From Cyclobacterium plantarum (GTDB lineage: Bacteria; Bacteroidota; Bacteroidia; Cytophagales; Cyclobacteriaceae): a DNA stretch of 64,000 nucleotides. The translations under genes were made by a program, and so were the position numbers. Positions within the stretch are counted from its first letter, which is position 1; every line of letters starts with the position of its first letter. Under the pieces are notes generated by a model. That model saw only the letters and a list, made by a program, of their open reading frames with translations. It did no database searches and was not told the DNA's origin. Shown piece after piece: positions 29,942 to 60,896 of this stretch. The stretch lies in contig NZ_JAANYN010000010.1 in the NCBI RefSeq assembly GCF_011290685.1, positions 124,001 to 188,000 of the forward strand. The letters run 5' to 3'.

Positions 29942-31702
29942 ATGTCACAAAGAAATTGGAGCACCCACCATTACTTGACTACTGGGCTACTCACTTCATT
30001 GATTTTGATTTTTTATACATCTTGTCAGTCTGACAACAATCTTCCGCCTGCTGATCCGGATAATGGGGGGCTGTTTCTTCCAGATGGTTTTGAAGCAATT
30101 GTGGTCGTTGACAGCATTGGTCGGGCTAGGCACCTGACCGTAAATGAAAATGGGGACATTTATGTAAAACTGAGAGTTCCTAATGAGGAAGGACAAGGAA
30201 TTGTTGCCTTAAGAGACAGCAACGGAGATGGGAAAGCAGATAGGGTGGAAACTTTTGGAGAATACTCCGACACGGGCAATTACGGCACTGGAATGGAAAT
30301 TTATAATGGCTACCTTTATTTCAGTACGGCCGGGGAAGTTTACCGGACAAAGATTGATCCGGAAAAATTAGTGCCTGAAGGAGAAGTGGAGTTAATCATG
30401 AAAGATGATTATAAGAATGCAGTTCATGGATATGAACACATAGCCAAACCCCTGGCTTTTGATCAGGAAGGAAACATGTACGTGCCTTTTGGCTCTCCCG
30501 GTGATGTATGTCAGGAGTTCAACAGAAGACCAGGTGCACCGGGAATGGACCCCTGCCCTGAACTGGAATGGCATGGGGGAATCTGGCGGTTTGATGCCAA
30601 CAAGCTCAACCAAACCCAGCAGGATGGTTACAGGTATGCTACCGGCATACGCAGTGTAGTGGCCATGGACTGGAACAAAGACGAAAACAGCCTCTATGTG
30701 GTGCAGCATGGCAGGGATAACCTTCACCGTACCTGGCCGGATTTATTTTCAAGATGGGAGTCGGCACTTCTTCCGTCTGAAGAATTTTTCAAAGTAGAAG
30801 ATGGCACAGATGGAGGATGGCCCTATTATTATTACGACCACTTACAGGAGAAGAAATTACTTAATCCGGAATATGGCGGCGATAAAACTTTAGCCACAGG
30901 TGCTGAAAATGTGGAATCTCCACTTTTGGGTTTTCCAGGCCATTTTGCCCCAAATGATCTATATTTCTACCAGGGTGAGCAGTTTCCGGAAAGGTATAAA
31001 AGCGGAGCCTTTGTGGCTTTCCATGGCAGTACCATAAGAGGCCCCTATCCACAGGGGGGTTATTTTGTGGGTTTTGTCCCTTTTGAAAACGGCAAACCTT
31101 CCGGACCATGGGAGGTCTTTGCAGATGGCTTTGCACAGTTGGATACCATAGTAAATACCGGGGATGCCGCAGCAAGACCTATGGGCATCTCCATGGGCCC
31201 TGATGGTTCCCTTTATATCACAGAAAGCGTACAGGGGAAAATTTGGAGGGTGATGTATACTGGTGAAAAAGAAGATTTTGGGGCGGAAGCCCTCGCTGAA
31301 TTGGAAGAACGAAAAAATACCAGAACAAACATCAAGAACCCAGATGAGGAAGCCGATAATCTGGAGAAAGGACTCCTCGAAACTGGTGCACAAACCTACA
31401 ATATCTATTGTGCTACTTGTCATCAAGCCAATGGTAAAGGTGACGGTACCCGCTTCCCTCCCCTGGCCGAAACAGAATGGGTAACCCGAAATAACAAAAG
31501 ATTGATCAGCCTGGTATTAAATGGAATGGAAGGGCAAATTGAGGTCAATGAGGTGGAGTATAACGGTATCATGCCTGCACACTCCTTTTTAAGTGATGTG
31601 GAAGTGGCTGGAGTTTTGACTTATATAAGGAAAAACTTTGGCAATAATTCTTCCAGCATTTCAGCAACAGAAGTAGCTAAAGTCAGGAATGAATTGCAAT
31701 AA
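29942..31702 (+). CDS. PQQ-type sugar dehydrogenase-like / cytochrome c fusion lipoprotein (set A)
   Basis: A 586-residue exported protein. The start has a hydrophobic stretch ending FYTSCQ, a likely lipoprotein signal. Residues about 40-440 form a sorbosone-dehydrogenase-like beta-propeller (HLTVNENGDIYVKL, MDWNKDENSLYVVQHGRDNL, GPDGSLYITES). Residues about 470-586 are a cytochrome c domain: CATCH at 490-494 with the axial methionine in GIMPAH. Such fusions oxidise aldoses or sugar alcohols and pass electrons to the respiratory chain through the heme. No PQQ synthesis genes are in view. A second copy opens set B at 52742. First gene of a rightward operon. Confidence 0.87.
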   Translation: MSQRNWSTHHYLTTGLLTSLILIFYTSCQSDNNLPPADPDNGGLFLPDGFEAIVVVDSIGRARHLTVNENGDIYVKLRVPNEEGQGIVALRDSNGDGKADRVETFGEYSDTGNYGTGMEIYNGYLYFSTAGEVYRTKIDPEKLVPEGEVELIMKDDYKNAVHGYEHIAKPLAFDQEGNMYVPFGSPGDVCQEFNRRPGAPGMDPCPELEWHGGIWRFDANKLNQTQQDGYRYATGIRSVVAMDWNKDENSLYVVQHGRDNLHRTWPDLFSRWESALLPSEEFFKVEDGTDGGWPYYYYDHLQEKKLLNPEYGGDKTLATGAENVESPLLGFPGHFAPNDLYFYQGEQFPERYKSGAFVAFHGSTIRGPYPQGGYFVGFVPFENGKPSGPWEVFADGFAQLDTIVNTGDAAARPMGISMGPDGSLYITESVQGKIWRVMYTGEKEDFGAEALAELEERKNTRTNIKNPDEEADNLEKGLLETGAQTYNIYCATCHQANGKGDGTRFPPLAETEWVTRNNKRLISLVLNGMEGQIEVNEVEYNGIMPAHSFLSDVEVAGVLTYIRKNFGNNSSSISATEVAKVRNELQ

Positions 31703-31741
31703 CTTGCGTTAGCTGCCTATATTCCCTAAATTCAAACATCA

Positions 31742-32491
31742 ATGAAAGTCGGACTATTCATCTTAATGCTAACACTTGGTTTTTTTAAAAGCCATTTTAC
31801 AGATACCATGAACCATTCAGCAGCAGACCCATCCACATACATGGTACATCCGGTTACTAAACCCATCCTTATCAATGGAAATTGGGAAAAACAAGAGTGG
31901 AGGGAAGTTCCTGCCATTGAGATTGCCTTTCATATGGGAGAAACACCTTCATTTTCTCCCAAAACCGAAGTAAAACTGAGGTATGACAAAGACAATATCT
32001 ATGGCATTTTTAAGGTGCAAGATCGCTATGTGCAATGTCTGGTTCAGGAAATAAACGGCCCAGTTTCGACAGATTCCTGTGTGGAATTTTTCTTTTCTCC
32101 CGATGTCGCTGCGCCACTGGAATATTTTAATCTGGAAATCAACTGCTCCGGGGTTCCTCTCCTTCACTATGTCACCAGTCCCAGAAAAGAGTATAAGGTA
32201 CTGGACCCGGAAGATATCAGACAAATAGAGATTGCACATAGCATGCCGGACAAGGTTGATCCGGAAATCCGGGAGGATACGACCTGGTACATAGAATTCA
32301 AAATGCCTGTAAGTATTTTGAAGGAGCATCGCAACATATCCACGCCTGCTCCGGGGGTTACCTGGAAAGCCAACTTTTATAAGACTGGCAGTAAAACCAG
32401 CAATCCTCACTATTTTACCTGGAACGAAGTAATTAATGACAGACCAGACTTTCACCTACCCAGGTATTTTGGTAACATCACCTTTCAATAA
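31742..32491 (+). CDS. Carbohydrate-binding family 9-like protein
   Basis: A 249-residue exported protein (Sec signal, residues 1-19). The mature part matches the CBM9-like family: LINGNWEKQEWREVPAIEI, then VKLRYDKDNIYGIFKVQD and the FFFSPD and YIEFKMPVSIL blocks. These domains bind sugars or stand alone in sugar operons. It follows the dehydrogenase by 39 bp and precedes RidA by 24 bp. No counterpart exists in set B. Binding is inferred. Confidence 0.8.
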   Translation: MKVGLFILMLTLGFFKSHFTDTMNHSAADPSTYMVHPVTKPILINGNWEKQEWREVPAIEIAFHMGETPSFSPKTEVKLRYDKDNIYGIFKVQDRYVQCLVQEINGPVSTDSCVEFFFSPDVAAPLEYFNLEINCSGVPLLHYVTSPRKEYKVLDPEDIRQIEIAHSMPDKVDPEIREDTTWYIEFKMPVSILKEHRNISTPAPGVTWKANFYKTGSKTSNPHYFTWNEVINDRPDFHLPRYFGNITFQ

Positions 32492-32515
32492 TCGTCCAAT
32501 TCAAACTTAATAAAA

Positions 32516-33046
32516 ATGCTTAAACCACTTCAATTTTTACTGGTAATCGGTTTTCTTTCCATTTCTATTGTGGGCCATGCCCAACAGGATCCGGAAGAGA
32601 AATTAAAATCCATGGGTATCACTTTACAAACACCAGCTCCACCTACCGCCAATTTTGTAAGGGCGGTAAGAACGGGAAACCTGGTGTTTCTTTCCGGGCA
32701 TGGTCCGGCGCGGGGAGACGGAACCAGTGTGCAGGGGAAATTGGGCACTGAACTTACGGTAACTGAAGGACAAGAGGCTGCCAGGCTTACCGGAATTGCC
32801 TTACTTTCCTCATTGAAAGCTGAAATAGGGAATTTGAACAAGGTAAAAAGAATCGTTAAAGTTTTGGGAATGGTCAATGCCAGCCCGGATTTTACCCAGC
32901 AACCCCGTGTCATGAATGGTTTTTCTGACTTTATGGTTGAGGTTTTTGGAGAAAAAGGCAAACATGCCCGCTCCGCTGTGGGTATGGGTTCTTTACCCAA
33001 CAATATTGCCATAGAAATAGAAATGATAGTGGAAATAGAAGACTGA
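32516..33046 (+). CDS. Exported RidA family protein (set A)
   Basis: A 176-residue protein with a Sec signal (1-22) and a RidA/YjgF-like domain. RidA proteins hydrolyse reactive enamines/imines made by PLP enzymes to keto acids and ammonia. The key arginine is present (R152, in KHARSAVG), as is the acidic IEIEMIVEI end. Most RidAs are cytoplasmic; here the protein is exported, like the PLP enzyme encoded next. Three RidA paralogues occur in the window. Confidence 0.88.
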   Translation: MLKPLQFLLVIGFLSISIVGHAQQDPEEKLKSMGITLQTPAPPTANFVRAVRTGNLVFLSGHGPARGDGTSVQGKLGTELTVTEGQEAARLTGIALLSSLKAEIGNLNKVKRIVKVLGMVNASPDFTQQPRVMNGFSDFMVEVFGEKGKHARSAVGMGSLPNNIAIEIEMIVEIED

Positions 33047-33103
33047 GTTCAGGAACACCGATAAATGGCAGCCAGAGCGGGGCATTCTAAAACAAAAATA
33101 ATT

Positions 33104-34327
33104 ATGATAAGCAGAAGAAAATTACTAAAAAGACTGGGTGCCTTACCATTGGTGGGTGGGGTGATAGGCAGTGGCATTCCTTTATCAGGAACCATGGCTG
33201 CAAATGCTGAAACAAGCCCAAAAAGAGATATCGTTAAGGAGTTGGGCTTGAGGAGCTTCATCAATGCCGCCGGAACTTACACGGCCATGACTGCTTCCCT
33301 GATGCCAAAAGAAGTGATGGAAACCATTAATTTCTCTTCCCGTCACTATATCATGCTGGACGAGGTACAGGACAAAGTGGGAGAGAAAATTGCAGCCCTT
33401 TGTCATGCCGAAGCCGCAACGGTTACTGCCGGATGTTGGTCTGCCATGGTTTTGGGAACTGCGGGTGTGCTGACAGGAACTGACCGCGATAAAATCAGGA
33501 AACTGCCCAACCTTGAAGGGATGAAGTCAGAAGTCATTGTACAAAAATCACATAATGTAGGATACGTACACGCCATCACCAATACCGGGGTCAGCGTGAT
33601 AGAAGTAGAGACAGCCGCCGATGTAGATCGCGCCATCAATGGGAAAACGGCAATGATGTGGTTTTTAAATTATCAGGCACCTGATGGAAAGATCAAGCAT
33701 GAAGAGTGGGTGGCTTTAGGCAAAAAACACGGGATTCCCACCATGATCGATATGGCAGCAGATGTACCTCCGGTGGAGAACCTTTGGAAGTACAATGACA
33801 TGGGTTTTGATCTGGTATGCATTTCAGGAGGCAAGGCCATGAGAGGTCCGCAAAGTGCCGGAATTCTTATGGGGAGGAAGGATCTTATCGAAGCAGCGAG
33901 GTTGAGTGCCCCCCCCAGAGGAGGCACCATTGGCAGGGGCATGAAGGTGAATAAAGAAGAAATCCTGGGTATGTATGTGGCTTTGGATGAATACATTAAA
34001 AAAGACCACGATAAGGAATGGCAGGAATGGGAAGATAAGGTGGCCTATGTGGCCAGCGTGGTGGAAAAAATCGATAGCGTGACTACAGAAGTATCCGTTC
34101 CAGAAATTGCCAACCACACCCCTTATCTTAAAATTGCCTGGGACCCGGATAAAATCCAGCTCAGCCGGGCTCAATTACAGGAAAAACTCAGGCAGGGCAA
34201 TCCCTCCATTGAAGTAATCAGTGGTGGTGACCATGCAATAAGCATGACCGTTTTTATGCTGAGGCCCAAAGAAGAAAAAATTGTCGCCAAAAGAATCGCT
34301 GAAGAATTAAACATTGCTAAAGTTTAA
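33104..34327 (+). CDS. SelA-fold PLP-dependent enzyme, Tat-exported (set A)
   Basis: A 407-residue aminotransferase-fold enzyme related to L-seryl-tRNA selenium transferase and to D-glucosaminate-6-phosphate ammonia-lyase (DgaE). The PLP lysine is K244 in SGGKAMRGPQSAG. The N-terminus MISRRKLLKRLGALPL is a clear twin-arginine signal, fitting export of a cofactor-loaded protein. In this family the usual chemistry is alpha,beta-elimination of amino acids or amino sugar acids. I chose the ATG at 33104 rather than 33065, giving the Tat motif at the start. The stop is 3 bp before the amidohydrolase ATG. Confidence 0.87.
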   Translation: MISRRKLLKRLGALPLVGGVIGSGIPLSGTMAANAETSPKRDIVKELGLRSFINAAGTYTAMTASLMPKEVMETINFSSRHYIMLDEVQDKVGEKIAALCHAEAATVTAGCWSAMVLGTAGVLTGTDRDKIRKLPNLEGMKSEVIVQKSHNVGYVHAITNTGVSVIEVETAADVDRAINGKTAMMWFLNYQAPDGKIKHEEWVALGKKHGIPTMIDMAADVPPVENLWKYNDMGFDLVCISGGKAMRGPQSAGILMGRKDLIEAARLSAPPRGGTIGRGMKVNKEEILGMYVALDEYIKKDHDKEWQEWEDKVAYVASVVEKIDSVTTEVSVPEIANHTPYLKIAWDPDKIQLSRAQLQEKLRQGNPSIEVISGGDHAISMTVFMLRPKEEKIVAKRIAEELNIAKV

Positions 34328-34330
34328 ACC

Positions 34331-35584
34331 ATGAAAATCAAAAATCTTTTTCTCTTATTCCTGCTGGTATTTTCCAGTGGACTGTTACCTGCCCAAACCT
34401 ATGATCTGCTCATCAAAGGGGGCAGGTTGATTGATCCAAAAAACAATATTGACGGGGTAATGGACATTGCTATAACTGATGGCAAAATTGCCCGGGTAGC
34501 CAGTTCCATTAGCGCTTCTGATGCCAGGAAAACGATTCCGGCTCAGGGACTTTTGGTAACCCCAGGACTGATAGACATCCATGGTCATGTTTTTCACGGA
34601 ACACAACCAAACCATTATTTAAGTGATGGTTTGATAGCCGTTCCACCGGATGGGTTTACCTTCAGGGTTGGAGTGACTACCATTGTGGATTGTGGAGGTC
34701 CCGGCTGGAAAAACTTTGATACTTTCAAGAAGAATATCATTGATGCAAGCAAGACCCGTGTACTGGCCTTTATGAATATTGTGGGTGAAGGAATGCGAGG
34801 AGGTGCCTGGGAGCAAAATACCGGGGACATGGACGCCAAATTGAGCGCCATGGTGGCCCAGCAAAACCGCCAGCATGTAGTGGGCTTTAAGGTTGCCCAT
34901 TATGGCAGCAGGGATTGGATCCCTATTGATCGTGCTGTGGAAGCTGGAAACATTGCCAAAATGCCTGTGATTGTAGACTTTGGAGGCTCTACCCAGTTTG
35001 AACCCCTTTCTATCCGGGAGCTCTTCTTTGAAAGGTTGAGGCCCGGGGACATATATACCCATACTTATGCAGAACTTAACGGTGCCAGAGAAACCATAGT
35101 GGACAGGGAAACCAGACAATTCCAACCATTTGTACTGGAGGCCCAGAAAAGGGGGATTATTTTTGACGTGGGCTATGGAGGAGCCAGTTTTGAACTCCGT
35201 CAGGCCATTCCGGCCATAGCTGCAGGCCTCTATCCCAATACCATCAGTACGGACCTGCATGCAGGAAGTATGAATGCAGCCATGAAGAATATGCTGAACG
35301 TCATGACCACCTTTATGGCACTTGACATGGAACTTCCCAAAGTGATCAGTGCCAGCACCTGGGAGCCGGCACAAGTCATCCAAAGGACTGAGCTGGGCCA
35401 CTTGTCTGAAGGAGCCATTGCCGATCTGGCCATTTTAAGGGTGAGAGAGGGAGACTTTGGGGTCTGGGACCGCACAGGTCAAAAAGTAGAGACAAACCAA
35501 AGATTGGAATGTGAAATGACCATCAAAGATGGCAATATCGTATACGACTTCAATGGAATGGCCGCACAGGAAATCATTCAATAA
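34331..35584 (+). CDS. Exported amidohydrolase, COG3964 type (set A)
   Basis: A 417-residue metal-dependent hydrolase with a Sec signal (1-21). Metal residues: H84 and H86 (IHGH), the carboxylated-lysine position K187 (GFKVAH), H244 (YTHTY) and D308 (STDLH). The position that is histidine on the fifth strand in related enzymes (VHIG-type) is D216 here (VIVDFG). Studied members of this group deacylate N-acetyl-D-amino acids or acetyl-mandelate; genes of this type often pair with SelA-like enzymes. Ends set A just before a terminator. Confidence 0.87.
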   Translation: MKIKNLFLLFLLVFSSGLLPAQTYDLLIKGGRLIDPKNNIDGVMDIAITDGKIARVASSISASDARKTIPAQGLLVTPGLIDIHGHVFHGTQPNHYLSDGLIAVPPDGFTFRVGVTTIVDCGGPGWKNFDTFKKNIIDASKTRVLAFMNIVGEGMRGGAWEQNTGDMDAKLSAMVAQQNRQHVVGFKVAHYGSRDWIPIDRAVEAGNIAKMPVIVDFGGSTQFEPLSIRELFFERLRPGDIYTHTYAELNGARETIVDRETRQFQPFVLEAQKRGIIFDVGYGGASFELRQAIPAIAAGLYPNTISTDLHAGSMNAAMKNMLNVMTTFMALDMELPKVISASTWEPAQVIQRTELGHLSEGAIADLAILRVREGDFGVWDRTGQKVETNQRLECEMTIKDGNIVYDFNGMAAQEIIQ

Positions 35585-49111: not shown

Positions 49112-49121
49112 TTTAATTTTT

Positions 49122-52100
49122 TTAAAATCCTAAATTAACATTGAAACCAAAGGATCTTGCCGTTGGAGGCCCGAAGGAATCAAATCCCTGAGCAGCAGCA
49201 GAAGTTCCTACCGTTACATCAGGATCGATATTCTTCGCTTCATTCAGGAAGAAAAACAAGTTCCTGGCCACAAAGTTGATGCTGACGCTATTTAAGGGCA
49301 GGCCTTCTAGTTTTGCTGCAGGAATGGTATAACCAATCACTGCTTCTCTTAGCCTCACATTGGTAGCAGAATAGGAGAATACCTCGCCGATTGGCGCATT
49401 TCTACCTCCCATGTTTACCCAAAATAGTTCTGCAGTGGTCTCGATATCATTGGGAACAAAAGTACCATCTTCTGTTTCCCTTACAGCGGTTTCATGTGCC
49501 ATGAAATTCTCTCCGAATATCAAGCCGCCTTCTCTTCCCTGCAAGGTCTCTTCCGTCATTCCATCTGCATAAATGATTGCATTGGTCAACGAAGCAATGC
49601 TACCTCCCTGACGGAAATCAATGGTGAAATTAGCCCGGAAGTTTTTGTAGTTGAATGAATTTTGGATACCACCCAGCCAGATAGGATTGTAATTGGCTAC
49701 ACGAACAGTAAATCCCGGAGTGGTCCTTGGAACCCCATTATCTCCAACGATTACCCTTCCCTGGTCATCTCTAAGATATCCCCTGGAATAAACTTCTCCA
49801 AACATTTTTCCTTCCTCAACCCTGAATTGTCTCAGGAAATCACTACCAACAACGATGCTTGGACGCTGGTCATTGATCTCATTGACCATTGATATATTTC
49901 GGGCAAAATTTGCCGTGATATTCCAGTTAAAATCAGCTTTTCGGATTGGAGTGATATTGAGCACAACCTCTATACCCTCATTCTGCACATCGCCGCCATT
50001 GGTGAAGAAACTGGAGGCTCCAGATCCTACCGGCAAGGCAACTGTGAACAGTTGGTTGAATGAATTGGTTTTGTAATAGGTGAAGTCAACGCCCAGACGA
50101 TTGTCCAGAAAGCGGAAATCACCACCCAATTCAATAGATTGTGTTGTCTCCGGAAGCAGGTTCTCATTAGGAAGGGTAGTACTTAAAGAAAGGTATCCTC
50201 CCAATCCACCCGCTGCAAATGCAGCAGTTCTTTGCAGCTGATAAGGGCTGGTATCGTTACCTACCTCTGCAAATGAACCCCTAACTTTGGCAAAAGTGAA
50301 CCATTCTGGAAATTGCACCAGATCAGATACCACGGCGTTCAACCCAACAGAAGGATAAAAGAAGGACCAATTGTCCTTCGGTAAAGTAGAAGACCAGTCA
50401 TTTCTGGCAGTAATGTCCAGGAATATGGCGTTTTTCCATGCCAGTTGGGCAAAGGAATACAGTGAATTTACATCCTTTGGTCCACCTACTCCATGGGTTG
50501 ATACTACCTGTTGGGTGTTCGTCAGTGCAAAGAAATTAGGAACAACCATGTTTTGACCCGTATTGGAGTTCAAAGATGAATTCCTGTTGATCCGGCTGTT
50601 ACCACCCGCATTGATATTGAAATACCAATCCTGGCTCAAGGTTTTTTCATAGCTGATCAGGAAGTCCGTATTGATCTCCATGTTTTCGGATTGGCCAATG
50701 GAATACCTGCCGTTTTGGGCGATGATATAACTGTCATTGTACAGTTTCTCTTCGCTGTTACCAAAAGAACGGTCAAGAGCAGCCCTACCCAGAACAGTCA
50801 GGCCTTCCGCCAGCTGGTAACTTAAGGAGGTAAAAGCCACAATCCTATCGGAAGTGTTCTTTCTCAGGTTTCGGTTGATGGTCCAGTAAGGGTTGGCTCC
50901 ACCGTTTGATCCCGGATTGAAATAATTCTGCCTCAATAAGCCTGAAGCGTTGGTAAATTCGAATCTGGAAATATCCTCCGTGGTAATATTCCTGGGCAAG
51001 CGCATGATATGCCTGTTGGGGTTGGAGAAGTTTTCTCCCTGCGCCAATTGATTATCTATGTCCTGCCGGATATAATTGACTTTAGAATCCAGTGTTAACT
51101 TTTCTGACAATTTATTCGTCAACCTCAGGTTAATACTGTGCCTGCCCAAAGCATTGCCTGGTACAACACCTGCAGCATCTGTGTAAGTATAGGAGAAATA
51201 AGTTTGATTTCTCTCATTACCTCCGGTGATAGCCAGCGTGGTCGCCAGATTATGTCCGGTCTGATAAAAATCACTGATGTTGTCAGGTTGTGGAGAAAAT
51301 GAATAGGTATCATTCGGCCTGTTAGGGTCCGGAGACCAATGTGCTACGGAAGAACCATCCATTCTGGGACCCCATGAAAATTCCGACCCTGGAGCATAGT
51401 TGCCGTTGCTTCCCTGACCATATACATTTTGAAAATTGGCCAGGATCAGGGGCTGATCAAACATATACGATGTATTCACACTCACCTGAAAACCACCTTC
51501 GCGGCCTCTTTTGGTGTTCACCACAATCGCACCGTTATTTGCCCGGCTTCCGTAAAGGGCGGCCGCATTTGGCCCCTTCAGTACGTTGATGCTCTCTATA
51601 TCGTCGGGATTCAGGTTTTCGATTCCATTTGCAGGTACACCATCCACAATATAGAGGGGCTGGCTGTCTCCACTGATGGAACGATTACCTCTCAATACTA
51701 CGCGAGTGCCTCCACCAACACCACTACCTGAGCGGTTAATGGACAATCCGGCCACTTTACCCGAAAGCGAGTTCATCACATTAAGCTCTCTGGCTTCAGA
51801 AAGCTCCTGAGTACTCACATCCTGTACCGTATAAGTAAGGGCTTTCTTCTCTCTTTCCAATCCAAAGGCAGTGACCACTACTTCAGATAGTGCCTCCAAT
51901 TCAGAAGAAAGGGAAACATTTATCTCACTGTTGTTGCCAACAACTCTTTCCTGCGAGGCATATCCCAAATAGGAAAATACCAACACTGATTGCGCATCGG
52001 GAACACTAATACTATATTGCCCATCAATATCCGTGATGGTACCCGTATTGGTCCCTTTAATCAATATACTGACACCCGGTAAGGGAGAATCAGCATCTTC

Positions 52101-52190
52101 ATCGGTCACGGTGCCCGTAACCGTTCTTTCCTGTGCCATGCCTTGAAAGGCAAATAGAGCCAGGAATAAAACTAGTAAACTTTTTTTCAT
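49122..52190 (-). CDS. SusC/RagA family TonB-linked outer-membrane transporter
   Basis: A 1022-residue outer-membrane receptor. Signal peptide (1-19, ending GMAQ), carboxypeptidase-D-like domain (TVTGTVTDEDADSPLPGVSI), the SusC-type plug region EVVVTAFGLEREKKAL, the plug (ISGDSQPLYIVDGVPANGIE) and a long beta barrel ending in an aromatic residue (FGFNVNLGF). It imports nutrients with TonB energy. Followed by susD, typical SusCD. No sigma/anti-sigma pair is adjacent. Confidence 0.94.
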   Translation of the reverse strand: MKKSLLVLFLALFAFQGMAQERTVTGTVTDEDADSPLPGVSILIKGTNTGTITDIDGQYSISVPDAQSVLVFSYLGYASQERVVGNNSEINVSLSSELEALSEVVVTAFGLEREKKALTYTVQDVSTQELSEARELNVMNSLSGKVAGLSINRSGSGVGGGTRVVLRGNRSISGDSQPLYIVDGVPANGIENLNPDDIESINVLKGPNAAALYGSRANNGAIVVNTKRGREGGFQVSVNTSYMFDQPLILANFQNVYGQGSNGNYAPGSEFSWGPRMDGSSVAHWSPDPNRPNDTYSFSPQPDNISDFYQTGHNLATTLAITGGNERNQTYFSYTYTDAAGVVPGNALGRHSINLRLTNKLSEKLTLDSKVNYIRQDIDNQLAQGENFSNPNRHIMRLPRNITTEDISRFEFTNASGLLRQNYFNPGSNGGANPYWTINRNLRKNTSDRIVAFTSLSYQLAEGLTVLGRAALDRSFGNSEEKLYNDSYIIAQNGRYSIGQSENMEINTDFLISYEKTLSQDWYFNINAGGNSRINRNSSLNSNTGQNMVVPNFFALTNTQQVVSTHGVGGPKDVNSLYSFAQLAWKNAIFLDITARNDWSSTLPKDNWSFFYPSVGLNAVVSDLVQFPEWFTFAKVRGSFAEVGNDTSPYQLQRTAAFAAGGLGGYLSLSTTLPNENLLPETTQSIELGGDFRFLDNRLGVDFTYYKTNSFNQLFTVALPVGSGASSFFTNGGDVQNEGIEVVLNITPIRKADFNWNITANFARNISMVNEINDQRPSIVVGSDFLRQFRVEEGKMFGEVYSRGYLRDDQGRVIVGDNGVPRTTPGFTVRVANYNPIWLGGIQNSFNYKNFRANFTIDFRQGGSIASLTNAIIYADGMTEETLQGREGGLIFGENFMAHETAVRETEDGTFVPNDIETTAELFWVNMGGRNAPIGEVFSYSATNVRLREAVIGYTIPAAKLEGLPLNSVSINFVARNLFFFLNEAKNIDPDVTVGTSAAAQGFDSFGPPTARSFGFNVNLGF

Positions 52191-52741: not shown

Positions 52742-54496
52742 ATGAATCGCATCTGTTTACCGTCCATCTGCAGTTTCGTCCTTTCAGCCGTTTTAATTAT
52801 TCTTTTTTATTCCTGTCAAAGCAGAGATTCTTTACCGCATCCCGATCCGGAAAATGGAGGCCTTTCTTTACCCGGGGGTTTCGGAGCCCTGGTAGTAATA
52901 GATAGTATAGGAAAGGGCAGGCATATAGCGGTCAACGAAAATGGCGACATCTATGTAAAATTGAGATATGCGAAAGGTATGGGCAGCAATGTGGCCCTAA
53001 GGGATACCACTTGGGATGGCAAAGCAGATATCATCAGGTATTTTGGGGATTATGAAGACGAAGGCAGTCTGGCAAATGGAATGCGAATCCATGATGGTTA
53101 CCTGTATTATAGTTCTGCCAGGGTAGTCTACAGAAATAAACTGACCCCAGGGCAACTGATACCTGACAGTCCAATGGAAGTGGTGCTTACTGATGATCAT
53201 GAACACGGTATTCACTGGCACATCACCAAACCTGTATCTTTTGATCAGGAAGGGAATTTATATGTCCCATTTGGAAGTCCCTCAAACGCCTGCCAGGATT
53301 TGGAAAACAAACCCGGTGGCATTCCCGGATCCCAGGGACTGGATCCCTGTCCCGAACTGATCGAACATGGAGGAGTCTGGAAATTTCCTAAGGATAAAAT
53401 GGGAATGACCCAGAAAGATGGTGAATTGTTTGCCACGGGGATCCGAAGTGTTGTGGCCATGGACTACAACCCGGTAGACAATCACATTTATGTGGTGATG
53501 CATGGTAGAGATAACCTGCATTTGCTTTACCCTGAAACCTTCTCTCCCTGGGAAAGTGCTGTTTTGCCTTCAGAAGAGTTTATCAAAGTAAGCCAGGGAG
53601 CAGACTATGGCTGGCCCTATTGTTACTATGACCAGATCAAAAAGAAAAAGGTCCTTGCCCCTGAGTACGGAGGGGATGGTGAAATGGTAGGCAGGTGTGC
53701 TGGTATGGACGATCCGGTCATGGGCTTACCTGGCCACTGGGCTCCCAATGACTTGTTGTTTTATACGGGAGATCAATTTCCCGAACGGTATAAAAACGGC
53801 GCTTTTATCGCCTTTCATGGTTCCACCAACCGGTCTCCATACCAACAATCAGGTTATTTTGTCGCCTTTATACCCTTTCATAACGGGCAGGCAGCTGGAG
53901 ATTGGGAAGTCTTTGCCAATGGTTTTGCGGGAAAAGAACTTATTGTCAATACCAATGATGCTGCATTCAGGCCTATGGGTCTGGCGCAAGGACCTGATGG
54001 TTCATTGTATGTCTCTGATTCAAGAGTAGGCAAAATCTGGCGTATTTTGTTTACAGGAGAAAAGGCCTCATTTGGAAAAGGTGAACTGGAAAAAATGGAA
54101 GCACAAAAATTAGTAGCCAATATCCGCAACCCCCATCCCGAAGAAGATAACCTGGATAAAGGTCAACTTCCTGAAGGTAAAAAGGTATACAATACCTATT
54201 GCTCTCCCTGTCACCAAAGAGATGGCAACGGAGCAACAGGCAGGATACCCGGTCTCAGACAAACGGACTGGGTTACAGGAAGCAAAAAACGGCTGATCCA
54301 ATTGGTACTGGAAGGCCTGGAGGGAGAAATAGAAGTCAATGGAGAATGGTATGACAATGTAATGCCGGCCCATCAATTTTTAAGCGATGATCAAGTTTCA
54401 GAAGTATTGACCTTCATAAGGCAGAATTTCGACAATAAGGCTTCGGCTGTTTCAAAAGAAGATGTAGCAAATATCAGGGCTGAAATTTCAAACTAA
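52742..54496 (+). CDS. PQQ-type sugar dehydrogenase-like / cytochrome c fusion lipoprotein (set B)
   Basis: A 584-residue paralogue of the protein at 29942. Signal ends LFYSCQSR (lipoprotein). The propeller (HIAVNENGDIYVKL, MHGRDNLHLLYPETF, GPDGSLYVSDS) spans about 40-440; the cytochrome c has CSPCH at 487-491 and the axial methionine in NVMPAHQFLSD. Same order of blocks and near-identical motifs show a duplication. It ends overlapping the convergent Nramp-like gene by 9 bp, so it is separated from the rest of set B. Confidence 0.87.
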   Translation: MNRICLPSICSFVLSAVLIILFYSCQSRDSLPHPDPENGGLSLPGGFGALVVIDSIGKGRHIAVNENGDIYVKLRYAKGMGSNVALRDTTWDGKADIIRYFGDYEDEGSLANGMRIHDGYLYYSSARVVYRNKLTPGQLIPDSPMEVVLTDDHEHGIHWHITKPVSFDQEGNLYVPFGSPSNACQDLENKPGGIPGSQGLDPCPELIEHGGVWKFPKDKMGMTQKDGELFATGIRSVVAMDYNPVDNHIYVVMHGRDNLHLLYPETFSPWESAVLPSEEFIKVSQGADYGWPYCYYDQIKKKKVLAPEYGGDGEMVGRCAGMDDPVMGLPGHWAPNDLLFYTGDQFPERYKNGAFIAFHGSTNRSPYQQSGYFVAFIPFHNGQAAGDWEVFANGFAGKELIVNTNDAAFRPMGLAQGPDGSLYVSDSRVGKIWRILFTGEKASFGKGELEKMEAQKLVANIRNPHPEEDNLDKGQLPEGKKVYNTYCSPCHQRDGNGATGRIPGLRQTDWVTGSKKRLIQLVLEGLEGEIEVNGEWYDNVMPAHQFLSDDQVSEVLTFIRQNFDNKASAVSKEDVANIRAEISN

Positions 54497-55768
54497 CTCT
54501 ATTAAGGCCAGAGCCCCTGTGTAGGAGATGATACAGGCAAATATAAAGGCGGTAATTAACCCAATATTCAACCAGAACCCCGCTTTTTGCTCACCCATCA
54601 ACGCTTTTTGATTTACCAGGTATAGTATACAGGCGATAACCAAAGGTAGAACGAAAACCGCAGCCACCTGGGTCAATATTTGAGCAAATATGGGATTGGC
54701 TCCTAAAGCAGGAACTGTCAAACCAACCAGACAAGCCACTCCCGTCAAAACCTTAAAACGGGTAGATCGGATGTCTAGCTCCCCTTCTTTATAATCTGCC
54801 ACCAGTAGCGGGGCCACCATTAGGATTGGGAAAACAGAGGACAGCCCTGCGCTCAATGCTCCGGTCATAAACAAAGCTACAGCAAATTTACCTGCAACGG
54901 GCTCCAGGATATAAACCATGTCCATTACTTTTTCTATGGTTTTGCCATCTGCATAAAGTGCCCCTGTTGCCGCAGCCATGATCGAAAGATTAATTACCAA
55001 CATTAAAATTGCGCCGGTCAGCGCATCGTTTGATTGTTCCCGTGTATGGGAAGGTCCCCATCCCTTACCTTTCATCAACAGAGGCCGCACCACAAAGGTT
55101 GGGGCTGCCATTGTCGTTCCTACAAAAGCTGCCACCAACAACCTCCCCCCTGGCACATCTGGCACGGAGGGGACAAGCCCTTTAACCATCTGCGCCGGAT
55201 CAGGCAGTACCACAAACATGGAAATGATAAAAGAAATACCCATAATGGTCACAAAGACGATCAATACCTTTTCAAAAAAAGAATACTGCCCTACCCACAA
55301 CAGGGAATACATCAGCAGGATCAGCACGATAGCGATACCCAATACCGGCCAATAGGAGTCGCCGGATAAGCCCGGGAAAAACATGATCACCATTTCATAG
55401 ATGGCATTGGCACTTAACCCCAGGATTCCGGATAACGAGTTCCACTGAGCCAGAATTATCCCTCCCACAACCAGATAAGCGATCCACTTTCCTCCTTTCA
55501 ATTTTGTCTTAAAGCTATAAATGGACGTTTGACCAGTAACAACGGCATACCTACCGTAAGCTTCCATTAGCACCCAGGAAAAAATGCAACTTAGCACCAG
55601 CACCCAAAGCAACTGCATGCCGAACTCGCTCCCGGCCTTGGCCATAGAAGTTACACTTCCGGTACCTATCGTATAGCCGATACAAAAAATACCCGGCCCA
55701 ATGCCCAGCATCCAAAGCCAGATTTTTTGCAATAAGTTAGTATTCGGAGTTTTATTCGCCTTGTTCAT
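54488..55768 (-). CDS. Divergent Nramp-family transporter
   Basis: A 426-residue inner-membrane protein with about eleven helices and the Nramp-like start GPGIFCIGYTIGTGSVTSM. The metal motif DPGN of helix 1 is here GTGS (35-38), and the MPHN of helix 6 appears replaced by APTF. The canonical ligands for Mn/Fe are therefore missing, so a different substrate is likely. It lies inside set B on the opposite strand; the gene overlaps the end of the dehydrogenase by 9 bp. Family call by overall pattern, substrate unknown. Confidence 0.75.
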   Translation of the reverse strand: MNKANKTPNTNLLQKIWLWMLGIGPGIFCIGYTIGTGSVTSMAKAGSEFGMQLLWVLVLSCIFSWVLMEAYGRYAVVTGQTSIYSFKTKLKGGKWIAYLVVGGIILAQWNSLSGILGLSANAIYEMVIMFFPGLSGDSYWPVLGIAIVLILLMYSLLWVGQYSFFEKVLIVFVTIMGISFIISMFVVLPDPAQMVKGLVPSVPDVPGGRLLVAAFVGTTMAAPTFVVRPLLMKGKGWGPSHTREQSNDALTGAILMLVINLSIMAAATGALYADGKTIEKVMDMVYILEPVAGKFAVALFMTGALSAGLSSVFPILMVAPLLVADYKEGELDIRSTRFKVLTGVACLVGLTVPALGANPIFAQILTQVAAVFVLPLVIACILYLVNQKALMGEQKAGFWLNIGLITAFIFACIISYTGALALIELV

Positions 55769-56113: not shown

Positions 56114-57397
56114 ATGCCTGTTTTACATCTGACCAAATTGTTGTGCCTGCAATTGCTTTTGATTTGTACTGCTTTGTTATCAACCCTAACAGCCCAGGCG
56201 CAGGAAATTGACCTGCTATTAAAAGGAGGCAGGGTCCTGGACCCCAAAAACGAAATCAATGACATCATGGACATTGCCATTTCAGGCAAAACAATCCTGA
56301 AGGTAGAAAAAGATATTCCGGCAAGTAGTGCCAAAAAAACCATTGACCTCAGTGGTTTTATCGTAACTCCAGGTTTATTGGACATGCATGTGCATGTATT
56401 TCATGGTGCCGATACCGAAGCATACATTGCCAATGGCCTTACCAGCCTGCCACCGGATGGTTTTACTTTCAGGTCAGGAGTCACTACCGTGGTGGATGCA
56501 GGTTCTTCTGGCTGGAGGAATTTCCGGGAATTCAAAAAACAAACCATTGACAAATCCCAAACGCGGATATTGGCCCTGCTCAACATTGTCGGTACAGGCA
56601 TGTATGGGAGGTATGAAGAGCAGGATGTCATGGACATGAATCCTACGATGACCGCAAACATGATTACCCGGTTGTTCCCAGACATATTGGTAGGGATCAA
56701 ATCCGCCCATTACTGGGGCGATTTTACGCAGGTAGACCTGGCTGTAGAGGCGGGCACCCTGGCCAATGTCCCCGTAATGGTGGATTTTGGGGAACACCAG
56801 CCTCCCAATTCCATTGAGTCGCTGTTTATGGAACATCTCAGGCCTGGCGATATTTTTACCCATACCTTCTCTTATGGCCCCAATAACAGGGAAACGATTG
56901 TGGATGAAGACCTGAAGCTTAAACCCTTCATTTTGCCCGCACAGCAACGAGGAATTCGTTTTGATGTGGGGCATGGTGGTGGTGCATTTTCCTTTCGGCA
57001 AGCAATCCCGGCTATTCAGCAGGGCTTTCTTCCGGATGTGATCAGTTCGGACTTACATAAAGACAGCATGAACGGAGGGTTTAAGGATATGGCCAATCTC
57101 CTCTCCAAATTCATGAACATGGGACTCAGCCTGGAGGAAGTCATCCTGAGGGCAACCTGGAACCCTGCGCAGGTAATTCATAGGGAAGACCTGGGTAACC
57201 TGGATCCTGGATCGGAAGCAGACATTGCGGTATTCAGCCTCAGAGAAGGAAATTTTGGCTTTCAGGACATTCGAAGGACCAAGATTGACGGAGATAAAAA
57301 ACTCGAAGCGGAATTAACCATCAGGGCAGGTAGAATTGTGTGGGACCTGAACGGGCTCAGCGTACCCTATTGGGAAACAGAACTGGGCAAACGCTAG
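56114..57397 (+). CDS. Exported amidohydrolase, COG3964 type (set B, first)
   Basis: A 427-residue paralogue of the set A amidohydrolase, with a Sec signal (to about 31, AQAQE). Metal residues: H92 and H94 (MHVH), K196 (GIKSAH), H250 (FTHTF), D313 (SSDLH); the fifth-strand position is D224 (VMVDFG) instead of histidine. Ten bp separate it from the second amidohydrolase. Probably hydrolyses an N-acyl bond in the periplasm; substrate inferred only from the neighbours. Confidence 0.87.
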   Translation: MPVLHLTKLLCLQLLLICTALLSTLTAQAQEIDLLLKGGRVLDPKNEINDIMDIAISGKTILKVEKDIPASSAKKTIDLSGFIVTPGLLDMHVHVFHGADTEAYIANGLTSLPPDGFTFRSGVTTVVDAGSSGWRNFREFKKQTIDKSQTRILALLNIVGTGMYGRYEEQDVMDMNPTMTANMITRLFPDILVGIKSAHYWGDFTQVDLAVEAGTLANVPVMVDFGEHQPPNSIESLFMEHLRPGDIFTHTFSYGPNNRETIVDEDLKLKPFILPAQQRGIRFDVGHGGGAFSFRQAIPAIQQGFLPDVISSDLHKDSMNGGFKDMANLLSKFMNMGLSLEEVILRATWNPAQVIHREDLGNLDPGSEADIAVFSLREGNFGFQDIRRTKIDGDKKLEAELTIRAGRIVWDLNGLSVPYWETELGKR

Positions 57398-57407
57398 ATA
57401 CATCAAT

Positions 57408-58631
57408 ATGAAAAGATGGCCGCTTCTTTTTCTTCTAATCAGCCTTTGCCTGCAGCTGCGGGCTCAGGACCTGGACATATTGATCAAAGGAGCCTACCTG
57501 ATCGATGCAAAAAATGGCATACGCGACAGCATGGATGTAGGTGTTCTGGCAGGAAAAATTGCCAGGGTCGCTCCGCAAATTGCTTCGGGAGATGCAAAAA
57601 AAGTGATTGATGCTTCTGGCTTGATCCTCAGCCCCGGATTGATTGATCTCCACACGCATCTATTCGTGGGCAGCCAGGCAAGAACCTTTGCAGATGGGTT
57701 TTCCAGTGTATCACCGGATAATTTCTCCTTTAGATCCGGCATTACTACCATGGTAGATGCCGGAACCTCCGGATGGAGAAATTTTGAAACTTTCAAAAAA
57801 AATGTCATTGATGCTTCCCAAACCAGGGTACTGGCATTTTTAAATATCGCCGGTACCGGAATGAGCGGAAATCCAGATCAGGAAAACCTATTGGACATGG
57901 ATCCTGAAAAAGCCTTCGAAACTCTGCTACAGTATCCTGACATACTGGTGGGAATCAAAATCGGTCATTTTACTGGTCCGGAATGGACACCCTTCGAAAA
58001 TGCACTCCAGGCGGCTGAGATGGCCAACAAGCCTTTGCTGGTGGAATGCCACCTGCCCCAATACACCCTGGCCCAACAATTGGAAAAAATGAGACCCGGG
58101 GATATCCTCACGCACAGCTTTGAAGAGATTGAAGAGCGCATGCCCATTGTGGATGAGCAGGGCATGCTACGCAGTTTTGTCAAAGCAGCTTATGATAGGG
58201 GTATATTATTCGATGTGGGACATGGAGGGGCCGGATTTTGGTTCAGTCAGGCCATCCCTGCCGTACAACAGGGTTTAACCCCACACAGCTTCGGAACAGA
58301 TCTTCACCGATTCAGCATGAACTCCGGAATGAAAAACATGCTGAATGTCATGTCTAAATTTATTAATATTGGAATGGAAGTAAATGATGTGATCGAAAGG
58401 GCATCCTGGCAGGCTGCGCAAGCCATAAAACGAACTGACCTGGGCCACCTTAGTGAAGGAGCGGTGGCAGACCTTACCTTACTGAAATTACATGAAGGGG
58501 AATTTGGTTTTATCGATGCAGGAGCTAATAAAATTGAAGGAAAATATAAATTGGAAACTGAGCTTACCATGAAAGGCGGGAAAATCGTCTATGACTTGAA
58601 TGGATTGGCTGCAAAAAAATACACTTATTGA
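57408..58631 (+). CDS. Exported amidohydrolase, COG3964 type (set B, second)
   Basis: A 407-residue protein with a Sec signal (1-20, LRAQ). Metal residues: H82 and H84 (LHTH), K184 (GIKIGH), H236 (LTHSF), D298 (GTDLH). The fifth-strand position reads VECH, with E213 where related enzymes have histidine and a histidine two residues later (H215), so it differs from both other copies. The stop is followed after 1 bp by the PLP enzyme gene. Two tandem amidohydrolases may serve different N-acyl groups or stereoisomers. Confidence 0.87.
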   Translation: MKRWPLLFLLISLCLQLRAQDLDILIKGAYLIDAKNGIRDSMDVGVLAGKIARVAPQIASGDAKKVIDASGLILSPGLIDLHTHLFVGSQARTFADGFSSVSPDNFSFRSGITTMVDAGTSGWRNFETFKKNVIDASQTRVLAFLNIAGTGMSGNPDQENLLDMDPEKAFETLLQYPDILVGIKIGHFTGPEWTPFENALQAAEMANKPLLVECHLPQYTLAQQLEKMRPGDILTHSFEEIEERMPIVDEQGMLRSFVKAAYDRGILFDVGHGGAGFWFSQAIPAVQQGLTPHSFGTDLHRFSMNSGMKNMLNVMSKFINIGMEVNDVIERASWQAAQAIKRTDLGHLSEGAVADLTLLKLHEGEFGFIDAGANKIEGKYKLETELTMKGGKIVYDLNGLAAKKYTY

Positions 58632-58632
58632 T

Positions 58633-60252
58633 ATGGACAGAAGAGAAATGATCAAAAACCTGGCAATCCTACCCATGGGGGGCAGCCTGATGAGCATGTC
58701 ACCACTTATGGTAAGTCAAGGAAATAAAAAGCCCGGTGGTCCTTTGGCACTTGATGAAAATATTTACCGTTCATTGGGAGTGGAACCTATCATCAATTGC
58801 AGGGGCACCTTTACCATTATTGGCGGGTCCATTGAAAGGCCTGAAGTACATCAGGCAATGGCTGCAGCGGCAAAAAACTTTGTCCAATATGATGAACTGG
58901 CCTTTGCCATTGGAGAAAGGCTCGCTGAAATCACCAAAGCCGATTTTGGTATCATAACGGCGGGTTGTGCCGCAGCTATGAAACATGCCACTGCTGCTTG
59001 TGTGACCGGCGGCAACCCGGAAAAATTACTAAAAATCCCGGACCTCAGCGGATTTGACAAAACCGAGGTTATCATTCCCAGACATTCCAGAAATGTATAC
59101 GACCATGCTGTAAGGAATATTGGCGTTACCATAGTGGAGGTTAATAGCCCCGAAGAACTGGAGCAAGCCATAAACCCTAAAACGGCAATGATTTACCTGA
59201 TTTCCGGTAGGGGTGCAGATACAGGTCAGCCCTTATCCCTTGAAAACGTTGCCCGTATCGCAAAAAGCAGTAATGTCCCCATCCTTATGGATGCCGCAGC
59301 GGAAAACCTAACCATTCCTTGTGTGCATTTTGAAAGGGGAGCTACCATGGTGGCTTATTCAGGCGGTAAGGCCATTTGCGGTCCGCAATGTGCCGGATTG
59401 CTATTGGGCAGAAAAGACCTGATGCTATCTGCCTGGCAAGCCAGTTCTCCGCACCATGGTCCAGGAAGGGATAATAAAGTGGGTAAAGAGGAAATGCTTG
59501 GCATGTTGGCAGCAGTGGAAGCCTGGACTACCCGCGACCATGACAAGGAATGGGATACCTGGATGGAATGGCTCAACAGCATTGCTGACAGGGCCACAAA
59601 AATAAAGGGGGTGACCCACCAGATCAACCAGCCCAGTGGATTGAATAACCGTGCCCCCATGCTTCAGATCCTTTGGGACCCGGAACAATTGCATATTAGC
59701 GGTGAGGAAGTGGCTGAGCTTTTCGGAAGAACTGCGCCCAGGATTGCCGTTGGCAGCCGAAATCAGGACGGGCTGACATCCATTACCATAAGTCCCAACC
59801 AGATGCAGCCTGGAGAAGCCGGGGTAGTTGCAGACAGAATCCACAAAACCCTATCCGCCAAAAGAAAACCCACCGATAACGCTATGGCTGCTCCTGCAGG
59901 TAATCTTAGTGGGAAATGGGAGGTGGAAATGTCCTTTTTCAGTAGTAAAAGCACCCACAAGTGGATTCTGGAGCAGGATGGGAACTGGCTGAACGGTACA
60001 CACATGAGTGATTTTGCAGACCAGGACCTGTATGGAACAATCGAAGGAAATACAGTTAAAATGCGCAGCAATTTCCGTAAACCGGGAGATTCAGTCACTT
60101 TTATGTTTACCGGCAAAATGGAAGGCAGCCAATTGAAAGGAGAAGTATTTATGGGAGAATACCTCACGGCCGAATTTACTGCCAAAAGACCGGAAGGCAG
60201 CCCAAGAAAAGAAAAAATAATGGTGCCCTCTGGTCCTCCGCTGGCCACCTGA
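58633..60252 (+). CDS. SelA-fold PLP-dependent enzyme with C-terminal beta domain (set B)
   Basis: A 539-residue enzyme. The first 415 residues parallel the set A enzyme; the PLP lysine is K246 in SGGKAICGPQCAG. The start MDRREMIKNLAILPMGG is a twin-arginine-like signal, weaker than in set A. From about residue 420 a domain of about 115 residues follows (SGKWEVEMSFFSSKSTHKW ... LKGEVFMG), beta rich and lipocalin-like, absent from set A; it may bind substrate. ATG at 58633 chosen over 58600, which lies within the preceding gene. Confidence 0.86.
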   Translation: MDRREMIKNLAILPMGGSLMSMSPLMVSQGNKKPGGPLALDENIYRSLGVEPIINCRGTFTIIGGSIERPEVHQAMAAAAKNFVQYDELAFAIGERLAEITKADFGIITAGCAAAMKHATAACVTGGNPEKLLKIPDLSGFDKTEVIIPRHSRNVYDHAVRNIGVTIVEVNSPEELEQAINPKTAMIYLISGRGADTGQPLSLENVARIAKSSNVPILMDAAAENLTIPCVHFERGATMVAYSGGKAICGPQCAGLLLGRKDLMLSAWQASSPHHGPGRDNKVGKEEMLGMLAAVEAWTTRDHDKEWDTWMEWLNSIADRATKIKGVTHQINQPSGLNNRAPMLQILWDPEQLHISGEEVAELFGRTAPRIAVGSRNQDGLTSITISPNQMQPGEAGVVADRIHKTLSAKRKPTDNAMAAPAGNLSGKWEVEMSFFSSKSTHKWILEQDGNWLNGTHMSDFADQDLYGTIEGNTVKMRSNFRKPGDSVTFMFTGKMEGSQLKGEVFMGEYLTAEFTAKRPEGSPRKEKIMVPSGPPLAT

Positions 60253-60314
60253 AAAACCTTTTAAGCAGATAAAAACCCATACCGGTTACCAAAACCTTTA
60301 TTAAAGAAAAACAC

Positions 60315-60896
60315 ATGAAAAAGCTATCCTTAATTTTCCTATTGTCCGCTTTTTGTCTCATTTCCTGTGGTGAAAAAGCAACAAATGCTTCATTAAAAAA
60401 TCAGGAAACCCCCAAAGAAGTGCCCAATGATGGCATAGATGCTGAACAAAGGATCAAGGACCTGGGTATAACCTTAATCCAGCCTAATGCCCCAACCGCC
60501 AATTACCTGAAAGCCAAAACCCTTGGCAATGTGGTCTACCTAGCAGGACATGGACCGGATAGACCGGATGGCACACAGGTCATAGGCAAGCTCGGCACCG
60601 AGTTGGAACTGGAACAAGGGATAGAAGCCGCCCGCTTTACAGGCATTTCCCTGCTATCCTCACTCAAAGCTGAAATCGGTGATCTGAACAGGGTAAAAAA
60701 CATCATCCGGGCACAGGGTATGGTCAATGCTGCCCCTGACTTTAAACAGCACTCACAAGTCATCAATGGCTTTTCGGATTTAATGGTAGAAGTATTTGGG
60801 GAAAAAGGAAAACATGCCAGGGCGGCCATAGGCATGAGCTCTCTTCCCAATAATATTGCCGTAGAAATCGACATGATTGTCGAACTCTATGAATAA
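60315..60896 (+). CDS. Exported RidA family lipoprotein (set B)
   Basis: A 193-residue protein with a lipoprotein signal ending CLISCGEK (cysteine at about 18), then a spacer and a RidA domain very like that of set A (both have the INPL-like IQPNAPTANYLKAK start, LGTELE block and KHARxAxGM with R169 here). Lipid anchoring of a RidA is unusual. It is the last gene of set B, 62 bp after the PLP enzyme. Confidence 0.88.
   Translation: MKKLSLIFLLSAFCLISCGEKATNASLKNQETPKEVPNDGIDAEQRIKDLGITLIQPNAPTANYLKAKTLGNVVYLAGHGPDRPDGTQVIGKLGTELELEQGIEAARFTGISLLSSLKAEIGDLNRVKNIIRAQGMVNAAPDFKQHSQVINGFSDLMVEVFGEKGKHARAAIGMSSLPNNIAVEIDMIVELYE

Follow-up and report, generated by a model that had tools for sequence, protein, structure and literature searches.

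What do two similar gene sets of Cyclobacterium plantarum degrade, when most of their products appear to carry export signals? The sets lie in a 64,000-nucleotide stretch of DNA (the window; contig NZ_JAANYN010000010.1, positions 124,001 to 188,000), set A at 29942-35584 and set B at 52742-60896. The initial annotation had described each as encoding a GSDH-like/cytochrome c fusion, a SelA-fold pyridoxal phosphate (PLP) enzyme, one or two amidohydrolases and a RidA protein, nearly all of them exported. The open reading frames (ORFs), the profile scores and matches of the PLP enzymes to structure 7lc0 bear out this content, and a motif-level heuristic finds export signals on most products that are conserved across homologues. 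Judging by the enzyme families, their conserved key residues, the export motifs kept in homologues and the joint occurrence of the genes, we consider that the two sets are, on balance, probably paralogous versions of one exported module that catabolises N-acylated 2-amino sugars or the corresponding aldonic acids; the substrate, the sequence of steps, where the enzymes reside and what they do are our inference.

In the proposed pathway, the GSDH-cytochrome c fusion would oxidise the sugar at C1 in the periplasm and pass electrons to heme c, and a lactonase of the SMP-30 or PF10282 family would open the lactone. An amidohydrolase of family NF006689, which we take to be COG3964, would strip the N-acyl group to leave a 2-amino-3-hydroxy acid. 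By the precedents of DGL (the enzyme in 7lc0) and the Ong pathway, a DgaE-type PLP enzyme exported by twin-arginine translocation (Tat) would then eliminate the 3-hydroxyl and release an enamine/imine, which an exported RidA would hydrolyse to ammonia and a 2-keto-3-deoxy acid. Where encoded, an exported RraA-type aldolase would cleave this acid and a BASS carrier would import a 2-oxo acid. More tentatively, the whole amino-sugar route, beginning with oxidation at C1 and ending with aldol cleavage, might be extracytoplasmic in Bacteroidota and Acidobacteriota and proceed without a phosphorylated intermediate. PLP would then be preloaded by way of Tat export, electrons would be taken at heme c, exported RidA would shield the periplasm from enamines, and only ammonia and small organic acids or aldehydes would need to be taken up.

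Two gene sets with a common core

The genes of the two sets are as follows.

Set A
29942..31702, forward strand: GSDH-like beta-propeller/cytochrome c fusion (PF07995, 32.9 bits; PF00034, 37.8 bits; both above cut-off); putative lipobox YTSC, by eye
31742..32491, forward strand: CBM9_2 protein, probably exported (PF16011, 121.9 bits)
32516..33046, forward strand: RidA of PF14588 type by Pfam scan; export signal predicted
33101..34327, forward strand: DgaE/SelA-like PLP enzyme; twin-arginine (RR) signal MISRRKLLKRL; start probably at 33101, ORF opening at 33065
34331..35584, forward strand: amidohydrolase, COG3964 type, Sec-like signal (NF006689, 424.9 against a cut-off of 371)

Set B
52742..54496, forward strand: GSDH-like/cytochrome c fusion (PF07995, 34.5 bits); putative lipobox FYSC, by eye
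54488..55768, reverse strand, opposite to the rest of the set: Nramp-like transporter (PF01566, 193 bits)
56114..57397, forward strand: amidohydrolase 1, COG3964 type (NF006689, 439.4 against 371)
57408..58631, forward strand: amidohydrolase 2, COG3964 type (NF006689, 403.7 against 371)
about 58633..60252, forward strand: PLP enzyme with a C-terminal extension; RR signal MDRREMIKNL; ORF opening at 58600
60315..60896, forward strand: RidA, PF14588 type; putative lipobox LISC, by eye

In a check of the window's ORFs all genes of both sets were found where the initial annotation had placed them, and the CBM9_2 protein and the Nramp-like gene are additions to its inventory. Both GSDH fusions exceed the PF07995 cut-off of 25, and all three amidohydrolases that of NF006689. 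Between the sets, identity is 55% for the GSDH fusions, 67% for the RidAs, 48-51% for the amidohydrolases and 34% for the PLP enzymes; from these values of 34-67%, the sets are therefore old paralogues at the level of sequence. The best named match of the set A PLP enzyme, at 99%, comes from a Cyclobacterium metagenome-assembled genome.

Key residues are largely conserved. The 78 distinct homologues of the GSDH fusions all retain CxxCH, and 69 retain the H..KP..FD motif. A search for PqqC, as a marker of PQQ synthesis, gave no match in this genome, but none in the control genomes either, and so bears neither way on PQQ supply. The conserved arginine of RidA, presumably the catalytic residue, is retained in 20/20 RidA_A, 17/17 RidA_B and 85/86 type-C sequences (122 of 123 rows in all, window included), type C being that of a third RidA encoded between the sets.

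The module partners recur together across genomes

The partners had been expected to occur together, and across the family they do. In a sample of 196 family genomes, own genome included, the PLP enzyme, type-C RidA and amidohydrolase were present in 58, 57 and 58 genomes, respectively; all three were found together in 57 and none in 137. The two discordant genomes have only a 29% PLP match (G011) or only the amidohydrolase (G179). Every one of the 57 genomes with type-C RidA also has the PLP gene, the start-to-start distance being at most 3 kb in 39 and at most 10 kb in 50. Fisher's test gives p = 4e-49, a value that is only descriptive because the sampled genomes are related. In the wider phylum the PLP enzyme was found at E 1e-40 in 8 of 395 sampled genomes, own included, and its distribution is thus patchy.

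We then considered gene neighbourhoods (numbered with an L). Among 60 that were fetched, 59 contain the PLP cluster, 52 the amidohydrolase, 31 the GSDH fusion, 27 type-C RidA, 17 a type A/B RidA and 16 a CBM9_2 homologue of the set A type. Counts of partners at most five ORFs away were made for 150 distinct genes of the set A type (PLPA) and 32 of the set B type (PLPB), with the window excluded and identical PLP sequences counted once. An amidohydrolase lies within this distance of 127 PLPA and 28 PLPB genes, a RidA of 102 and 15, GSDH or a related propeller of 90 and 10, and a lactonase of 39 and 4. Because the genes recur together in so many genomes, their joint occurrence is more than chance. 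Long sets include L121 (GSDH, SMP-30, amidohydrolase, RraA, RidA, PLP, RidA) and L108 (GSDH, amidohydrolase, BASS, RraA, RidA, PLP); matches to PF03737 were obtained for the RraA-type exported protein in L054 and for one from C. plantarum.

The strongest alternative is that the sets differ in substrate, set B being no amino-sugar pathway and acting, with its Nramp-like gene and second amidohydrolase, on a lactam or other amide. The low sequence identity of the two PLP enzymes noted above would fit, as would an Nramp-like gene in eight set B neighbourhoods and the lack of any RraA or BASS gene near the 32 PLPB genes. Set B nevertheless retains the GSDH-cytochrome c fusion, RidA and amidohydrolases, the PLPB gene has a PF10282 lactonase nearby in L059 and, judged by similarity, in L063, and a single gene run in Granulicella contains both PLP types. 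We therefore regard separate substrates as somewhat unlikely.

Gene neighbours favour an amino sugar as substrate

An amino sugar is favoured over N-acyl-D-amino acids by neighbouring genes for lactonase, aldolase and GH20 and, in other taxa, by those for PIG-L deacetylase, glucose 1-dehydrogenase and glucosamine-6-phosphate deaminase. A GH20 gene is found close to the set in L085, L088, L090 and L091 (one genus, g65; the L085 protein was profile-scanned) and in L134-L136 (Aquiflexum, Cognataquiflexum), and is weak evidence because the latter may be the same genomes as the four g65 loci. As a separate observation, L039 has, at 7008-8888, a GH9-type glycosidase whose gene diverges from a set of the order PLPA-GSDH-RidA-amidohydrolase; exo-glucosaminidases are among the members of GH9.

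Among 242 records with a match, nine plasmid contexts were inspected. A single run on a plasmid of the acidobacterium Granulicella encodes RraA, PLP enzyme, RidA, second PLP enzyme, amidohydrolase, PF10282 lactonase and a BBE/FAD oxidase. By eye, both PLP enzymes, the RidA and the lactonase have an RR motif and hydrophobic start, RraA and the amidohydrolase a Sec-like start, and the oxidase neither. BBE proteins include sugar oxidases. In Halorussus, a PIG-L deacetylase, PLP enzyme, glucose 1-dehydrogenase and Rid lie within about 5.5 kb, and in Natrinema the PLP gene is accompanied by genes for two enolase-type proteins, a DHDPS-family protein and a Rid. Phyllobacterium has an ABC importer, amidohydrolase, RidA and PLP enzyme, with an annotated glucosamine-6-phosphate deaminase about 4 kb away, and two Rhizobium records have the order ABC-RidA-PLP. 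Rid is about 2 kb from the PLP gene in Halomicrobium; Haloarcula combines sugar ABC transport with two PLP genes and has no annotated RidA within the stretch, and in Sinorhizobium numidicum the PLP match lies in an unrelated setting. That different dehydrogenases (GSDH, BBE oxidase or glucose 1-dehydrogenase) and deacetylases (NF006689 or PIG-L) replace one another, in the company of lactonases and aldolases, speaks for an N-acyl amino sugar that is oxidised at C1.

A different class of substrate would be N-acyl-D-amino acids, or beta-hydroxy-D-amino acids of peptides or peptidoglycan. The amidohydrolase would deacylate, the PLP enzyme would be a D-serine/D-threonine-type dehydratase and RidA would hydrolyse its enamine. 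The COG3964 protein Atu3266, which we take to be that of structure 2ogj, is reportedly active on N-acetyl-D-amino acids. In favour of amino acids, an S15 peptidase and/or gamma-glutamyltranspeptidase adjoins PLPA relatives in L038, L093 and L194, and the excerpted text of PMC9537276 names D-aminoacylases as the closest characterised relatives of OngB. An amino-acid pathway leaves unexplained the sugar-dehydrogenase-like fusion, two lactonase families, the RraA aldolase, GH20 and CBM9, and we judge it unlikely.

In L038, L093 and L194 the PLPA relatives (63-65%) stand beside the S15 peptidase, with the transpeptidase as well in L038 and L093, and lack an amidohydrolase within five ORFs, which suggests that the PLP enzyme has been put to another use there.

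The PLP enzymes are relatives of DGL with an altered active site

The set A PLP enzyme scores 176.3 against TIGR01437 (cut-off 385.3) and 147.6 against NF047797 (cut-off 600). Because these scores fall below the DgaE cut-offs, it is by sequence a relative of DgaE and not a member. Both window enzymes match 7lc0 (set A, E=3.7e-28; set B, E=6.5e-36). With the set A model (mean pLDDT 82), 7lc0 was also the first Foldseek match, at template-modelling (TM) scores of 0.76/0.84, and Cap15 (8t7j) was an almost equal second.

The alignments comprised 151 distinct sequences of the PLPA type and 33 of the PLPB type, counting the window enzymes. The PLP lysine (213 in the DGL chain used, Lys-217 in the text of PMC9529869) is kept in all 151 and all 33, and the position of DGL Arg226 is basic in 150 of the PLPA type. 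DGL Arg301, Arg332 and Arg346, which a docking model puts at the phosphate according to the available text of PMC9529869, are retained in only 1, 5 and 0 PLPA-type and 3, 0 and 0 PLPB-type sequences, as expected if the substrate is unphosphorylated. His163 survives in one PLPA-type sequence and in three of the PLPB type. From the same text, the DGL mutant H163A releases free enamine, so loss of His163 would call for RidA. In window-type PLP enzymes this proton donor has likely been lost; some uncertainty attaches to the loss because the alignment has gaps in the loop and some rows contain a histidine there.

The near-equal match to Cap15 raises the prospect of an O2-dependent oxidase like Cap15, with RidA dealing with an imine by-product. 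None of the 151 PLPA-type or 33 PLPB-type sequences has more than one basic residue at 301/332/346, whereas Cap15 and DGL have three arginines each, and a 2-keto-3-deoxy product fits the aldolase and lactonase partners; we consider an oxidase very improbable.

The set B enzyme is modelled with an eight-stranded C-terminal beta domain (residues ~427-518) and a low-confidence tail. The exact C-terminal end GPPLAT is found in 25 of 32 homologues.

Export signals are conserved at the level of motifs

Export was scored by a heuristic of our own rather than by SignalP, Tat-like meaning an RR motif together with a hydrophobic stretch, against a background of 741 unmatched genes of more than 200 amino acids from the same loci. 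Tat-like starts were assigned to 147/150 PLPA, 30/32 PLPB and 80/82 type-C RidA proteins compared with 53/741 in the background. The RR of the set A PLP enzyme is invariant in 14/14 homologues, and the genome encodes TatC. At the motif level, then, the PLP enzymes bear conserved twin-arginine-like signals. Sec-like or lipobox signals were assigned to most GSDH, amidohydrolase, SMP-30, PF10282 lactonase, RraA and RidA A/B proteins (48/52 for the set A type of GSDH, 121/129 for that of amidohydrolase and 18/19 for RraA).

That the chemistry is right but cytoplasmic, with the RR and hydrophobic N-termini unused for export, would accord with export being known from motifs and with rhizobial and haloarchaeal relatives that have no N-terminal extension, but is the least probable alternative given how far these Tat-like frequencies exceed the background, the invariant RR, the presence of TatC and the fact that it is the cytoplasmic-looking relatives that lack the extension.

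Observations that weigh against an exported amino-sugar pathway

Several findings count against the pathway that we propose. The neighbourhoods were selected by their PLP gene and the counts are uncorrected for phylogeny; some neighbourhoods also end at contig ends, and some named records duplicate unnamed ones. No amidohydrolase, RidA or GSDH lies within five ORFs of 16/150 PLPA and 3/32 PLPB genes, and both BASS (19/150) and exported RraA (17/150) accompany a minority of PLPA genes. The two exported-type RraA genes of C. plantarum itself lie outside the window, and the peptidase-associated loci described above belong here as well.

In the PLP enzymes, the Arg226 position is basic in only 13 of 33 PLPB-type sequences, and some histidine lies within the gapped His163 loop in 37/151 PLPA-type and 5/33 PLPB-type sequences. 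Three rhizobial relatives keep His162-His163 yet adjoin RidA, which weakens loss of His163 as the sole explanation for RidA. In the amidohydrolases, a histidine of 2ogj (in GHGGASF), at a position that we assume to relate to the metal ligands, corresponds to tyrosine in the set A enzyme, histidine in both set B enzymes and asparagine in 8je0. In the 147 closest homologues of the set A enzyme, not deduplicated, the position is occupied by 36 His, 86 Tyr and 25 Phe (Tyr/Phe 111/147). Because tyrosine replaces the 2ogj histidine, the metal site of the set A enzyme may differ.

The Sec-like class is loose, taking in 251 of 741 background genes. Of four RidA control ORFs from the same genome, two that look cytoplasmic were flagged Sec-like and one was unflagged; the fourth, from L001, does not resemble a RidA frame. 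Signals are weaker for CBM9 (Sec-like in 13 of 24 homologues, no signal in 11) and for the second set B-type amidohydrolase (Sec-like or lipobox in 15 of 21, no signal in 5).

Comparison with known pathways

The closest tested parallel is the Ong pathway of Pseudoalteromonas prydzensis for oxidative chitin use (excerpts of PMC9537276 and PMC12017989), in which deacetylation and PLP-dependent deamination of 2-acetamido-gluconate were shown experimentally (PMC9537276). The likeness extends from deacetylation of a 2-acetamido-aldonate through PLP deamination to 2-keto-3-deoxygluconate (KDG) to the RidA protein OngD, which the excerpted text reports as essential in vivo with a role unknown (PMC9537276). 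As described there, Ong differs in that OngB is of the D-aminoacylase type rather than NF006689, OngB and OngC are predicted to be cytoplasmic whereas the window enzymes have export signals, GlcNAc1A is derived from chitin cleaved by lytic polysaccharide monooxygenase, and a KDG kinase follows. The DgaE/SelA-type PLP enzyme of the window is likewise set apart from OngC by description, and the D-aminoacylase 1rjp matches the set A amidohydrolase only at E=1.1e-5. The initial annotation had sketched the same chain of oxidation, deacylation, PLP elimination and RidA hydrolysis for N-acetylglucosamine; the families and the Ong precedent lend it support, with N-acetylglucosamine only one candidate among possible substrates.

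The DgaABCDEF D-glucosaminate pathway of Salmonella shares a PLP ammonia-lyase of the same fold that carries out beta-elimination on a 2-amino-3-hydroxy aldonate. According to the available text of PMC9529869, its substrate is imported and phosphorylated by a phosphotransferase system, and DGL has His162/His163 and Arg301/332/346, which the window enzymes lack. The operons of Rhizobium and Phyllobacterium combine a related PLP enzyme with RidA, and in Phyllobacterium an amidohydrolase too; they differ in having ABC importers and no N-terminal extension, and the three PLP sequences that were checked retain His162-His163.

PLP chemistry outside the cytoplasm had struck the initial annotation as unprecedented, a surprise that proves unfounded because PvdN and PtaA are PLP enzymes exported folded by way of Tat (excerpts of PMC6206403). 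They serve siderophore modification, and no catabolic chain is described in those excerpts. A text search of mainly open-access literature found cytoplasmic amino-sugar pathways and, among the matches listed, no exported version. The exported layout would be new for a chemistry known up to now from within cells. If it is correct, amino sugars are deaminated and degraded by an exported enzyme chain, and a recurring group of genes whose present names derive from selenium transferase, dihydroorotase and RidA gains a function. RidA would have a role beyond the cytoplasm, offering a testable comparison for the essentiality of OngD in the Ong pathway.

Genes between the sets

Further candidate members of the module lie between sets A and B.

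41234..42178, reverse strand: SMP-30/gluconolactonase-like lipoprotein (PF08450, 149.6 bits)
42444..42905, forward strand: third RidA, type C, RR signal MKRRSTIKK (PF01042, 66.3 bits); ORF opening at 42306
42950..44038, forward strand: BASS-type carrier (as labelled in the initial annotation) that may take up the 2-oxo acid product; recurs near PLPA genes
47489..52190, reverse strand: putative SusC/SusD pair, candidate for outer-membrane uptake; homologues next to set B orthologues

The lactonase-like lipoprotein has all of the motifs EGP, PND, NGIE and DG, and its gene adjoins PLP genes in other genomes as well. Type C is the most widespread RidA partner of the PLP enzyme, and BASS carriers transport 2-oxo acids. 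The lactonase, carrier and third RidA had been noted simply as lying between the sets, and this position stands; because they also recur with PLP genes in other genomes, they look like module members. A view of sets A and B as closed units was dropped for the same reason. SusC/SusD homologues adjoin set B orthologues in L058, L062, L064, L066 and L074-L077.

Other Cyclobacterium loci (L078, L079, L123-L127 and L138, of which L079 and L123 appear to be one genome) have an extra amidohydrolase between CBM9 and RidA in set A, missing from the window and from L122. By eye, the Nramp-like gene of set B (54488-55768) lacks the usual DPGN motif. In L069 and L072 the PLPB gene has a distant Nramp next to it, and L072 also has genes that resemble, by eye, those for 5-oxoprolinase subunits. 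At 61017-63136 of the window, an FGE-sulfatase/DinB protein lies beside a Methyltransf_33 protein, presumably an EgtB/EgtD-like pair.

Two other loci of the same genome resemble parts of the pathway. L103 (G000:C32:307000-326500) encodes a UxuA-like protein, three proteins of the MR_MLE type, an HpcH/HpaI aldolase and two RraA paralogues 54-56% identical to the exported RraA of L054. Inspected by eye, the UxuA-like protein and two of the MR_MLE type begin in a Tat-like manner, and the locus looks like one for exported dehydration and cleavage of sugar acids. In L104 (G000:C9:50500-70000), genes of the RraA, RidA and DHDPS families are clustered and look non-exported, which makes this locus a possible cytoplasmic counterpart.

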